From positions 1-39,990 of the forward strand of contig JALHOS010000016.1 of assembly GCA_022842905.1 (NCBI GenBank): DNA of 39,990 bases, read 5' to 3'. The stretch is from Myxococcaceae bacterium. GTDB lineage: Bacteria > Myxococcota > Myxococcia > Myxococcales > Myxococcaceae. Made by a program: the position numbers and the translations under genes. Shown piece after piece: positions 1,009 through 12,426 of the stretch (within the stretch, counting starts at the first letter, position 1; the number at the start of each line of letters is the position of its first letter). The notes under the pieces are model-generated. The model ran no database searches, was not told where the DNA came from, and saw only the letters and a program-made list of their open reading frames with translations.

Positions 1009-2964
1009 ATGAAACCCTCAGTCATCGTCGCACTCTTGGTCGGCGGCATCGTCGGCTTCGCCGCCGGAAAGATGTTCACCAACAACCAGGCCGCGCCGTC
1101 GGGCGGCTCGCCGGTCGCCGCGGCGCCCTCACCTTCCCCGAAGGGCAACGCCCCGGCGCCGAGCGCGGACGCGCCGGTGAAGGTCCCGCTCGACGAGTCG
1201 CCGATCACCGGCAACGAGAACGCGCTGGTCACGATCGTCGAGTTCTCGGACTACCAGTGCCCGTTCTGCAGCCGCGCGCACAACACGATGAAGCAGGTCC
1301 AGGACAACTACGGCGACAAGGTCCGCATCGTCATGAAGCAGAACCCGCTGAGCTTCCACCCGCGGGCCAAGCCGGCCGCGCTGGCGGCGCTCGCGGCGGG
1401 CGAGCAGGGCAAGTACTGGCAGATGCACGACAAGATGTTCGCCAACCAGCAGCAGCTGGAGGACGCGAACCTCGAGCAGTACGCCAAGGACATCGGCCTG
1501 AACGTCGAGAAGTGGAAGGCCGACATGAGCAGCGGCAAGTACGACGGCCAGATCCAGAAGGAGCAGGGCCTGGCGCAGTCGATCGGCGCGACGGGCACGC
1601 CGGCCTTCTTCATCAACGGCCGGAAGATCTCCGGCGCGCAGCCGTACGACACGTTCAAGGGCGTGATCGACGCGGAGCTCGCCAAGGCGCAGGAGATGGT
1701 GAAGAGCGGCGTCGCGGCGAAGGACGTGTACGCGCGCATCATGGAGAAGGCTTCGGCCGCGCCTCCCCCGCCGCCCGCGCCGCCTGCGCCGGCCGCTCCT
1801 CCCCCGCCGTCGGTGCGGAAGATCGACGTGCCGGCCGACTCGCCGGTCAAGGGCCCCAAGACGGCCAAGGTGACGATCGTCGCCTGGTCCGACTTCCAGT
1901 GCCCGTTCTGCAGCCGCGTGGTGCCGACGCTCAAGCAGATCGAAGACACCTACGGGAAGGACGTGCGCGTGGTGTTCCGCCACCAGCCGCTGCCGTTCCA
2001 CAACAACGCGAAGATCGCCGCCGAGGCGTCCATGGCCGCGAACGAGCAGGGCAAGTTCTGGCCCATGCACGACAAGCTCTTCGCCAACCAGCAGGCGCTC
2101 GATCGCGCGTCGATCGAGAAGTACGCGGGCGAGCTGGGTCTGGACCTGGGCAAGTTCAAGGCGGCGCTGGACAACGGCAAGTTCGCCAAGAAGGTCGACG
2201 AAGACTCCGCGCAGGGCATGGCGGTCGGCGCCAACGGCACCCCGACCTTCTTCATCAACGGGCGTGAGTTCGTCGGCGCGCAGCCCTTCGAAGCCTTCAA
2301 GGGGATGATCGACGAGGAGATCAAGAAGGCGGACGCGATGCTGGCCAAGGGCGTCAAGCCGGACAACCTCTACGCCGAGCTGATGAAGGAAGCGGCCAAC
2401 GCCCCGGCCCCGCAGGCGGCCCCCGAGCCGGCCCCGGTGGTGGTCAAGGACATCAACCTGGAAGGCGCCCCGGCGAAGGGCCCGAAGAACGCCCCGGTCA
2501 CGATCGTCGCGTTCTCGGACTTCCAGTGCCCGTTCTGCAGCCGCGTCGTCCCGACCCTCAAGGAGATCGAGAAGCAGTACGAGGGCAAGGTGAAGGTGGT
2601 CTTCAAGCACCAGCCGCTGCCGTTCCACAACAACGCCAAGCCGGCGGCCATGGCGTCGATGGCGGCCAACGAGCAGGGCAAGTTCTGGGAGTACCACGAC
2701 AAGCTGTTCGCCAATCAGGGCTCGCTCGATCGCGACGCGCTCGATCGCTACGCCAGCGAGCTGGGCCTGGACATGGGCAAGTTCAAGGCGGCGCTCGATT
2801 CGAACAAGTACGACGCGTACGTCACCGCGGACAGCAACGAAGGCATGAAGATCGGCGCCAACGGGACGCCGACCTTCTTCATCAACGGCCGCCAGGTCGT
2901 CGGTGCACAGCCGATCGACGCGTTCAAGAACGTGATCGACGACGAGCTGAAGAAGAAGAAGTGA
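1009..2964 (+). CDS. Membrane-anchored protein with three tandem DsbA/thioredoxin-like domains
   Basis: The product has 651 residues. The N-terminus MKPSVIVALLVGGIVGFAAG is a single membrane anchor or uncleaved signal, followed by an Ala/Pro/Ser-rich linker, so the domains should lie in the periplasm. Three DsbA-type (Thioredoxin_4/DSBA-like) units follow, each with a C-P-F-C active site (Cys84/87, Cys298/301, Cys507/510) and the matching cis-proline in G-T-P-x-F-F-I-N-G-R (about Pro198, Pro412, Pro621). A proline-rich linker separates units 1 and 2 and an Ala/Pro linker separates units 2 and 3. Units 2 and 3 are much closer to each other than to unit 1, implying a recent internal duplication. 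DsbA-family proteins oxidise or isomerise secreted-protein disulfides, or reduce them. The direction cannot be told from sequence. I chose ATG 1009 because AAGGAG lies upstream and the hydrophobic anchor starts there; a TTG at 934 is less likely. Confidence 0.9.
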   Translation: MKPSVIVALLVGGIVGFAAGKMFTNNQAAPSGGSPVAAAPSPSPKGNAPAPSADAPVKVPLDESPITGNENALVTIVEFSDYQCPFCSRAHNTMKQVQDNYGDKVRIVMKQNPLSFHPRAKPAALAALAAGEQGKYWQMHDKMFANQQQLEDANLEQYAKDIGLNVEKWKADMSSGKYDGQIQKEQGLAQSIGATGTPAFFINGRKISGAQPYDTFKGVIDAELAKAQEMVKSGVAAKDVYARIMEKASAAPPPPPAPPAPAAPPPPSVRKIDVPADSPVKGPKTAKVTIVAWSDFQCPFCSRVVPTLKQIEDTYGKDVRVVFRHQPLPFHNNAKIAAEASMAANEQGKFWPMHDKLFANQQALDRASIEKYAGELGLDLGKFKAALDNGKFAKKVDEDSAQGMAVGANGTPTFFINGREFVGAQPFEAFKGMIDEEIKKADAMLAKGVKPDNLYAELMKEAANAPAPQAAPEPAPVVVKDINLEGAPAKGPKNAPVTIVAFSDFQCPFCSRVVPTLKEIEKQYEGKVKVVFKHQPLPFHNNAKPAAMASMAANEQGKFWEYHDKLFANQGSLDRDALDRYASELGLDMGKFKAALDSNKYDAYVTADSNEGMKIGANGTPTFFINGRQVVGAQPIDAFKNVIDDELKKKK

Positions 2965-9364: not shown

Positions 9365-11224
9365 ATGACGAAGCGGTCGACGGGGGTGGCGCTCGCGGTG
9401 GCCTTCAGCGGACTGGCCGCCTGCGCCCCGAACAAGCCCGAGGCGATCCTCGTCGCCGTCGACGTACAGGCTGGAGCGCAGACCGAGTGCGTCGTGCTGC
9501 ACTTCACGTCCGGCGAGCGCCGGGCGCAGTCCGACGGGCTCGTGCTGGACGGTGGCGCGACGGACGGCGGCGTAAAGCGGCTGACGTACCAGATCGTGCG
9601 AAAGAGCTGGCCTCAGACGTTGATCGTCGAGGCCGTCGGCTACCAGCGCGACTGCAAGACGCCCGTCAGCCCCGCCGAGCGATCGGGCCAGAAGGGCGTG
9701 GGCTTCACCGCCAACCCGGTGCCGACACCGGCGCTCGTCCTCAAGGCCGGCGAGCGCGCCTGCGCGGACGGCGTGGACGACGACGGCGACGGCTTCACCG
9801 ACTGCAAGGACGAGGACTGTGATCAACAGCCCTGCGCGGAGACGGCGTGCTTCGTCCAGAAGCGCTGCGACCAGCGTACGTGCTCCGGCGGCGTCGAGCG
9901 GACCTGCACCAGCGCGCCGACCACCTGCTTCGAGCCGGTCGGAGCGTGCCGCGGCGACGGGTGCCAGTACACGCTCAAGGCGGCGTGCAGCGACGGCGAC
10001 GCGTGCACGGCCAACGACCGCTGCCAACTGGACGGAGGGTGCGCCGGGACGCGCCTCGACTGCCGGCCGCTGACGACCTGCCGCCGCTTCACCGGCAGCT
10101 GCGTCGACGAGCAGCGCTGCGTGTTCATGGATCTGCCACGAGGGACACCCTGCGACGACGGCGGGGTCTGCGGCGTCGGAGGGAGCTGCCTCCAACCGTG
10201 GCCCTTCCAACCCAGCAACGTGGCCCAGTCTGCGATCGGCATGCCGCAGCCCCCGGTCGTCCTCGACTGCCGTGGGACGATCGACACCACCGCGCTCAAC
10301 GACACCTGGTGCCCCGATGCGGGAGCGCAGCTGGCGGTCCTCCAGCAACCCGACGGAGGCGAGGTGGCGTTCGCGTACGTCGAAGGCCTCGACGTGCGGG
10401 GTGGCGCTCAGCTGGAGGTCCGCGGCGCCCGACCGCTGGTGCTACTCGTCGCTTCCCACGCGACGATCGCCGGGTCGTTCACCCTGCTCAACGCGCCGAC
10501 GAGCTGCACGACCGGCAGCGGCCAAGCCGGCAGCACCCGCGGCGGCGTGGACCGTTCCGGCGGGGGAGGCGGCGGCTTCGGATCATCCGGCGGCCCTGGC
10601 GGTGGCACGAGCGGCCTCTCGGGCGGAAGCGGAGGAATCGTGAACGGAAACGATCGGCTGAGTCCGCTCCGTGGGGGCTGCCCGGGCGGGCTCGGTGGTG
10701 CGTCGACGGCGACGCGCGCGCTCGGAGGCGGAGCACTTCAGTTGTCGGTGGCGGGCACCCTCACCTTCGCAGGCGTCATCTCGGCGCCGGGCGAGGGCGG
10801 AGCGCGGGTCGCCAACCTTCAGGGAGGCTCCGGCGCCGGGAGCGGCGGCGCCATTCTCCTCGAGGCGACGTCCTTTACCGCGCCGGGGGGCACGCTCGCG
10901 GCGAACGGCGGCGGCGGCGGGTGCGGGGGCTACTTCGGCGGCCCCGCGCAGGTCGATGACGGGGCCTCGGGCGGCGCGTCGACCACCTCGGCCGCGGGGA
11001 GCACCTGCGGCATTCCTTTCCCCAAGCCGTTGGGCGGCCCGGGCGGCGCCGGCAGCTCGACGGGCGGCGCTGGTGACTGGAACGGCTTCGCCGGCGGCGG
11101 CGGCGGTGGTGGCGTCGGGCGCATTCGCATTCGCACCCAGCAGGGCTGCGCGGTCGGCGGCATGCAGGCGTCGCCTCGGCCTGTGTACGATCAGGTCGGC
11201 CAGCTGGGTTGTCCGGCCCCCTGA
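9365..11224 (+). CDS. Cys-rich and Gly-rich lipoprotein with a calcium-loop motif
   Basis: This is a 619-residue secreted lipoprotein: MTKRSTGVALAVAFSGLAAC is a signal peptide with a lipobox (Cys20). Residues 30-130 form a plausible beta domain. From Cys133 on there is ADGVDDDGDGFTDCKDEDCD, an EF-hand-like/thrombospondin-3-like Asp-rich calcium loop closed by cysteines, then about twenty further cysteines through residue 275. The middle (about 290-380) is probably a beta-solenoid or sandwich. The last 240 residues have repeated poly-Gly tracts, for example SGGGGGGFGSSGGPGGGTSG and GGGGGGGVGRIRIRTQQGC, reminiscent of the Gly-rich domain PF12810. This composition is common in myxobacterial surface proteins. 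I know no function for it. The gene lies 49 bases after the hydrolase gene. Confidence 0.8.
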   Translation: MTKRSTGVALAVAFSGLAACAPNKPEAILVAVDVQAGAQTECVVLHFTSGERRAQSDGLVLDGGATDGGVKRLTYQIVRKSWPQTLIVEAVGYQRDCKTPVSPAERSGQKGVGFTANPVPTPALVLKAGERACADGVDDDGDGFTDCKDEDCDQQPCAETACFVQKRCDQRTCSGGVERTCTSAPTTCFEPVGACRGDGCQYTLKAACSDGDACTANDRCQLDGGCAGTRLDCRPLTTCRRFTGSCVDEQRCVFMDLPRGTPCDDGGVCGVGGSCLQPWPFQPSNVAQSAIGMPQPPVVLDCRGTIDTTALNDTWCPDAGAQLAVLQQPDGGEVAFAYVEGLDVRGGAQLEVRGARPLVLLVASHATIAGSFTLLNAPTSCTTGSGQAGSTRGGVDRSGGGGGGFGSSGGPGGGTSGLSGGSGGIVNGNDRLSPLRGGCPGGLGGASTATRALGGGALQLSVAGTLTFAGVISAPGEGGARVANLQGGSGAGSGGAILLEATSFTAPGGTLAANGGGGGCGGYFGGPAQVDDGASGGASTTSAAGSTCGIPFPKPLGGPGGAGSSTGGAGDWNGFAGGGGGGGVGRIRIRTQQGCAVGGMQASPRPVYDQVGQLGCPAP

Positions 11225-11335
11225 GCGCGCAACGCAGCACAGGTGTCCGCGCGAGCGCCTCGGACCGGAGGAAAACGAAGACCGGGTTGAGCGCGCCGCC
11301 ATGCATCGATGCCGGTGAGCGGGACAGCTGCCGCG
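11225..11335 (-). pseudogene. Decayed methyltransferase C-terminal tail (outer copy)
   Basis: On the reverse strand one frame reads LNPVFVFLRSEALARTPVL, matching VNPVLVFRRAEALAQAPAL at the end of the intact methyltransferase. Just upstream a second frame reads LTGIDAWRR, matching LIGIDARQH. The two pieces are in different frames, so the copy is frameshifted. It has no start codon or upstream domain and is only a remnant of the last 35-40 codons. Confidence 0.7.
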
Positions 11336-11344
11336 CTCCGGTGA

Positions 11345-11462
11345 CGCTGCGGCGCGAAGCGTGGACGTTTGGGCGAAGGCCTCGGCCCGGCCGAAGAGCA
11401 GGTTCACCGGCAGGTGGCGACGCAAGTCGACGGCGATGCGCCTGACGCGCTGCTACTCCACC
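11345..11462 (-). pseudogene. Decayed methyltransferase C-terminal tail (inner copy)
   Basis: On the reverse strand it reads VE, a TAG stop at 11455-11453, then QRVRRIAVDLRRHLPVNLLF and GRAEAFAQ. This matches VEQQLVRLIGIDARQHLPVN and the following FRRAEALAQ of the intact gene. The Gln-to-stop change is a single C-to-T step. The copy also lacks six bases (two codons), an in-frame deletion typical of DNA that once coded. It abuts the stop codon of the intact gene. Confidence 0.75.
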
Positions 11463-11463
11463 G

Positions 11464-12426
11464 TCACGCCGCGCGGCGCAGCGCAGGCGCCTGCGCGAGC
11501 GCCTCGGCCCGGCGGAAGACCAAGACGGGGTTGACCGGCAGGTGCTGGCGCGCGTCGATGCCGATGAGCCTGACGAGCTGCTGCTCCACCGGCGCGTCGA
11601 GCTCGATCGCCTCCTGGGTCCGACGGCCCAAATGCGAAAGAACGAGCCCAGCCTGCGCCGCCCGGCTGACCAGCACGTCCAGCGGAATGGCGACGTCGTG
11701 CGCGTGAAAGAAGCCGTCGACGAGCCCGCTGAAGGTGTGAATGTCGCGGTAGCCCTCGAAGGCCACGCTCAATCGCCGCCGTTCTTCGAACGGGAGCTGC
11801 CGCAGCACCGACCGACACGCGACGAGCAGCGCGCGGTGCGAGGAGAAGCGCTCCGGTGACACGCCCGCGGCCCGAAAGGTGGCCTGCACGTCGTAGATCG
11901 TCCGGCGGCTGGTGGGCGCGTACACCATCACCCGCAGCGCGCCGCCGGGTTTGAGCCAGCGCGCCAGGTTCTCGAGCACCGCACCCGGATCGGCGCAGTG
12001 GTGGAGCACGCCCGTGCAGACGATGGCGTCGAAGCGCTCGGCCGCGAAGAGCGTGCGGTCATTCAGATCGCCCTGCACCGGAGTGATGGAGCCCAGACCT
12101 CTCCCGAGCAATTGTTGGAGCAGGCGGTGCGGCAGCAGCGCCCAGACCACCCGCGCGAGCAGCACCCGCCAGCGCAGCCGCCTCAAGGATCGTTGAGACA
12201 GATCCACCGCCACGATCTTCCCGCGCGGGTTGGAGCGGGCGACGACGAGCGGCTCGAACGTGCCGCAGCCAGCAACGAGGACGGTGGGCGGCGCGCCCGG
12301 CGTCACCGAGTCGAAGCGCAGCTCCTCGGCCGGTGCAGGGATCGCAACGAGCGGGACATGCCCGGGGTACGGGTGCCGTTCGTACTGCGCGCGCACGGCC
12401 TGCGAAGTGAGCTGCGTCGTCCCCAC
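11464..12426 (-). CDS. SAM-dependent methyltransferase (class I, Methyltransf_12-like)
   Basis: The product is about 320 residues. It has VRAQYERHPYPGHVPL, an opening common in this methyltransferase group, then PPTVLVAGCGTFEPLVVARS (motif I, SAM-binding Gly loop), KIVAVDLSQRSLRRLR (motif II acidic residue), and FDAIVCTGVLHHCADPGAVL followed by LARWLKPGGALRVMVYAP (motifs III-IV). The C-terminal part, from VQATFRAAGVSPERFSSHR to a tail ending RAEALAQAPALRRAA, is not recognisable to me. It should transfer a methyl group from S-adenosylmethionine; the acceptor is unknown. No ATG fits without overlapping the upstream gene; the GTG at 12426 is the first reasonable start, 46 bases after the stop of the epimerase gene. 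It is the last gene of the aspS operon. Its 3' end is repeated twice downstream as pseudogenes. Confidence 0.8.
   Translation of the reverse strand: MGTTQLTSQAVRAQYERHPYPGHVPLVAIPAPAEELRFDSVTPGAPPTVLVAGCGTFEPLVVARSNPRGKIVAVDLSQRSLRRLRWRVLLARVVWALLPHRLLQQLLGRGLGSITPVQGDLNDRTLFAAERFDAIVCTGVLHHCADPGAVLENLARWLKPGGALRVMVYAPTSRRTIYDVQATFRAAGVSPERFSSHRALLVACRSVLRQLPFEERRRLSVAFEGYRDIHTFSGLVDGFFHAHDVAIPLDVLVSRAAQAGLVLSHLGRRTQEAIELDAPVEQQLVRLIGIDARQHLPVNPVLVFRRAEALAQAPALRRAA

Follow-up and report, generated by a model that had tools for sequence, protein, structure and literature searches.

The window, a stretch of 39,990 nucleotides from a Myxococcaceae genome, contains an intact gene of a class I SAM-dependent methyltransferase on the reverse strand (11464-12426). 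The start of this gene is uncertain, GTG at 12426 being the codon picked by the codon model. The product has a significant match to the Pfam family profiles Methyltransf_11/12 (1e-13, 52 bits, cut-offs 21/30) and a weak similarity to the PDB entry 8hkr, annotated as 'protein lysine methyltransferase' (E = 1.9e-14). The methyltransferase gene converges with an open reading frame on the forward strand (9365-11224) that encodes a large protein of secreted type. This protein matches the acidic double-disulfide repeat model NF033662 of NCBIfam below its cut-off (6.2e-8, 32.2 bits, cut-off 41) and is otherwise without a family in the Pfam search. A further gene of the window (1009-2964, forward strand) encodes a protein of 651 residues with three DsbA/thioredoxin domains in tandem (three stretches matching Pfam Thioredoxin_4) and has internal DNA repeats of 627-642 nt.

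The stop codons of the two convergent genes are separated by 239 nt, and this spacer is filled by two degraded copies of the end of the methyltransferase gene. The repeated unit, as delimited by self-alignment and by alignment with the C-termini of homologues, consists of the final 128 nt of the gene (11464-11591, reverse strand) and includes the TGA stop codon (11464-11466). Downstream of it, head to tail and in the same orientation, lie the ghost copies c1 (11342-11463, 122 nt, 79% identity to the gene tail) and c2 (about 11220-11341, about 122 nt, 77% identity). The end of c2 is degenerate and extends to the stop codon of the opposing gene, which forms the boundary of the array. Self-alignment yields direct repeats 11226-11293 and 11470-11537 (82%, spacing 244), 11394-11474 and 11522-11602 (78%, spacing 128), and 11327-11400 and 11449-11522 (72%, spacing 122).

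In Smith-Waterman local alignment with the gene tail, c1 scores 100 and c2 scores 92, whereas 2000 dinucleotide shuffles gave a mean of about 21 and a best score of 37. Thus the two degraded tail copies described in the original prediction are real and stand well above shuffled DNA. The lesions named there were also observed. In c1, a CAG codon is changed to TAG (11453-11455), two codons are lost by an in-frame deletion of 6 nt, and the terminal stop codon has disappeared; in c2, the frame is disrupted by deletions of 5 nt and 1 nt. The protein-level resemblance is still visible in the translated copies (HLPVN, RAEAFAQ, RSEALAR). However, the exact spacing of 122 bases applies only to the C-terminal halves, as the unit within the gene is 128 nt long. 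Both c1 and c2 are 6 nt shorter than this unit through different deletions, and since these losses are unrelated, the even 122-base step is a coincidence.

Divergence and origin of the copies

A three-way comparison covered 114 sites, of which 67 are identical in all copies and two differ in all of them. Private changes number 3 in the gene tail, 22 in c1 and 20 in c2, the difference between the tail and the ghosts being significant in both cases (p = 1.6e-4 and 4.9e-4 for c1 and c2). The tail and the ghosts thereby provide a built-in rate comparison, 3 versus about 21 changes. The short branch of the gene tail shows that it is under selection. On the contrary, c1 and c2 drifted with no detectable constraint: their changes are spread evenly over codon positions (9/5/8 and 5/7/8) and lean to A+T (20 GC>AT changes versus 9 AT>GC). 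A branch of three changes is short even for coding sequence, and gene conversion or a recent bottleneck may be involved.

The ghosts are only weakly similar to each other (67%) in comparison with their identity to the gene tail, and jointly depart from the tail at most at 3 of the 114 sites, so that the divergence is star-like. Therefore c1 and c2 arose at nearly the same time, with no common history beyond the first duplication. Such similar ages call for a single triplication or for two duplications close in time. The overall pattern fits one constrained copy, the tail, and two released copies of about equal age.

Homologues of the methyltransferase with 35-37% identity come from uncultured deltaproteobacteria and a Polyangium bin. 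The homologues L037-L040 align through the tail of the methyltransferase (ELCANPVLWFARG versus HLPVNPVLVFRRA). Most homologues run on past the shared tail with a further C-terminal region, which the window protein lacks. Since the C-terminus is shared by the homologues, the tail is old coding sequence, copied from the gene into the spacer, and the alignments indicate that the methyltransferase gene seeded the array. The opposite possibility, a repeat exapted as the methyltransferase tail, is ruled out, as the tail is common to the homologues. The search of 147 genomes of the class (E<=1e-10) produced no homologous locus save one partial relative, and no orthologue good enough for comparison of the spacers was found in the family, order or class.

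Tail copies in this genome and its relatives

The survey sample comprised 1.64 Mb of this genome, that is, 80 pieces of 20 kb (L044-L123) and the window, with our own gene models made by a codon model trained on the sample. A gene end was considered positive if a 50-nt window of it recurred at 74% or more in non-coding DNA beyond the gene, no farther than 700 nt away. With these thresholds, which were chosen while examining this genome, the 3' end was positive in 15 of 1353 predicted genes, the methyltransferase gene among them. Seven were positive at the 5' end, some of them apparently with wrongly assigned starts. Thus the retention of tails only, considered unusual in the original prediction, has parallels at 14 other gene ends in 1.64 Mb. 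Gapped alignment recovered 14 of the 15 3' cases, with 1-5 copies each at 76-96% identity, and the other arrays mostly contain frame-breaking indels.

The ten host genes that were checked are mutually unrelated; they include genes encoding Ham1 (ITPase), acyl-CoA thioesterase, GNAT acetyltransferase, TetR regulator and M50 protease. A blastn comparison of 32 arrays with the sample revealed no family linking the tail arrays. Insertion of a dispersed repeat element at gene ends is ruled out, as the arrays have no common sequence; one weak match in the genome, at C191, falls within a gene for outer-membrane efflux and resembles a chance hit of GC-rich sequence. A contig-end artefact is also ruled out, the distance of the tail arrays from the contig start being 4.9 kb or more. 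Separately, the genome has a dispersed repeat of about 65-75 nt, found at several sites (L059, 9641-10101, with matches in L076 and L084).

Tandem arrays of any kind were counted in spacers at least 60 nt long. They are present in 16 of 82 convergent spacers (about one in five), 13 of 287 co-directional and 4 of 154 divergent ones; the respective counts in the relatives G006, G022 and G045 are 4/68, 4/269 and 0/141. Counted by 3' ends, convergent spacers are enriched in arrays about twofold (p = 0.04). The 3' and 5' gene ends at array-bearing spacers are overrun about equally (19/45 and 7/21, p = 0.59), and thus the arrays fill convergent spacers and spill over their edges, with no particular preference for stop codons. 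Repeats confined to coding sequence are not in excess (33 per Mb versus 40-50). Examples of arrays in convergent spacers of this genome are found in L094 (12071-12734), L060 (15997-16657), L067 (17976-18514) and L052 (8700-9191); spacer arrays of this genome often extend into gene tails.

The same tail-copy test found no positive genes among 1032 in 1.2 Mb of G006, G022 and G045 (Fisher p = 2.7e-4 versus this genome), and the difference for arrays over all spacers is also significant (p = 1.8e-4), these three genomes being not the closest relatives (aspS identity 70-72%, closer ones being at 79-85%). In the closest relatives, G015, G017, G012 and G003, no array was observed downstream of two orthologues in a few loci, L186 having only 61 nt of downstream sequence. 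The Ham1 (ITPase) gene has an array downstream in this genome (L121) and unrelated arrays in G022 and G011 (L194, L196), and none in seven other relatives examined.

The genome-wide excess of arrays, obtained from one genome and a small sample of three relatives, is suggestive. Tolerance in convergent spacers, an argument also made for REP sequences (PMC1525189) and for VNTRs at stop codons in Yersinia pestis (PMC3689786), explains the location of the arrays, but not by itself the difference between genomes. One possibility, which we regard as tentative and rather doubtful, is a process of this lineage, whether mutational or selected, by which tail-anchored units of 60-200 bp are amplified again and again in convergent spacers, giving private arrays at about 1% of genes, with few in close relatives.

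Interpretation of the locus

The best explanation of the locus is tandem duplication of a unit of about 128 bp ending at the stop codon, followed by neutral decay of the extra copies (probability about 0.85). The segment, which starts 125 nt inside the coding sequence of the methyltransferase and ends with the stop codon, would have been duplicated head to tail twice, about simultaneously, the probable mechanism being slippage or unequal exchange. The unit adjoining the gene body remained the working C-terminus, kept by selection, whereas the two distal copies became spacer DNA between the convergent genes and drifted. Their persistence may be due to the absence of a promoter in a convergent spacer and to the fact that a duplication including the stop codon spares the protein. 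The locus is one of a set of private, locally made tandem arrays that are common in convergent spacers of the 1.64 Mb sample. Taken alone, it is an ordinary fossil of tandem duplication with an ordinary mechanism.

It is unlikely that the array was selected as DNA or RNA, for instance, as a buffer or a terminator between convergent transcription units. Such selection agrees with the exact filling of the spacer at the methyltransferase locus, with the arrays downstream of the Ham1 gene in G022 and G011, and with the preference for convergent spacers over co-directional (p = 5e-5) and divergent (p = 2e-5) ones. However, tolerance alone predicts the same location bias, and 3' ends are not overrun more than 5' ends once an array is present. 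Moreover, there is no motif common to the arrays, and the copies drift. No stable fold or terminator was found: the Rfam and tRNA scans of the array gave no matches, the terminator scan of 11225-11463 detected no terminator-like site, and the folding of either strand of each copy as RNA was no better than that of shuffles (z from -1.5 to +1.5). No function can be shown for the ghosts, and they are unable to supply a working tail.

The original prediction allowed for duplication of the 3' end alone or for decay of whole paralogues, and only the former agrees with the data. Tandem gene duplication with subsequent decay is common in bacteria. Here, however, two whole tandem paralogues would have to lose everything but their tails, and both ghosts start at one unit boundary and follow the copy before them without a gap, an arrangement that would not result from two independent deletions. 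No remnant of the methyltransferase domain is seen between the copies, and there is no other full copy, as the protein search of the genome produced only the gene itself, c1 and one weak methyltransferase elsewhere. Besides, the same pattern occurs at unrelated genes. Decay of paralogues is thus very improbable.

Even less credible is the suggestion that the tails are spare cassettes for swapping of the C-terminus by recombination (tail replacement or recombination seeding): although head-to-tail copies beside a coding end can recombine, and the ghosts retain some protein-level resemblance, c1 has an internal stop and no terminal one, c2 has a broken frame, the ghost changes have no third-position bias, the conserved gene tail with only three changes bears no sign of swapping, and the mild third-position excess of mismatches in 14 pooled arrays (129/125/175 by codon position) is explained by constraint on the genes' own tails.

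Known systems and implications

Mycobacterial interspersed repetitive units (MIRUs) are tandem repeats of intergenic regions that reportedly overlap the stop and start codons on their flanks. Their sequence is common to different loci, unlike that of the arrays considered here. REP sequences are preferentially sited in convergent spacers, a position in which an insertion leaves coding and regulatory DNA unharmed (PMC1525189). The arrays resemble REP/BIME in this preference, but REPs are a dispersed palindromic family, whereas each array described here is private to its locus and made from the neighbouring gene. Among the VNTRs of Yersinia pestis, ten loci are listed whose unit contains the stop codon of an ORF, and the authors consider this overlap to be of little harm to the ORF (PMC3689786). 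Arrays overlapping stop codons are therefore already known as a kind. The methyltransferase array is similar to these minisatellites, being a tandem array with one unit containing an ORF stop codon; however, the Yersinia units are mostly of 7-21 bp and near-identical (PMC3689786), whereas this array has three strongly decayed copies of a 128-bp unit.

The genome-wide frequency of such arrays matters more than the single locus. If tail arrays truly build up in a fifth of convergent spacers with no rise in coding repeats, the lineage would be a natural system for studying whether short tandem duplications are driven by convergent transcription or by defects of repair.
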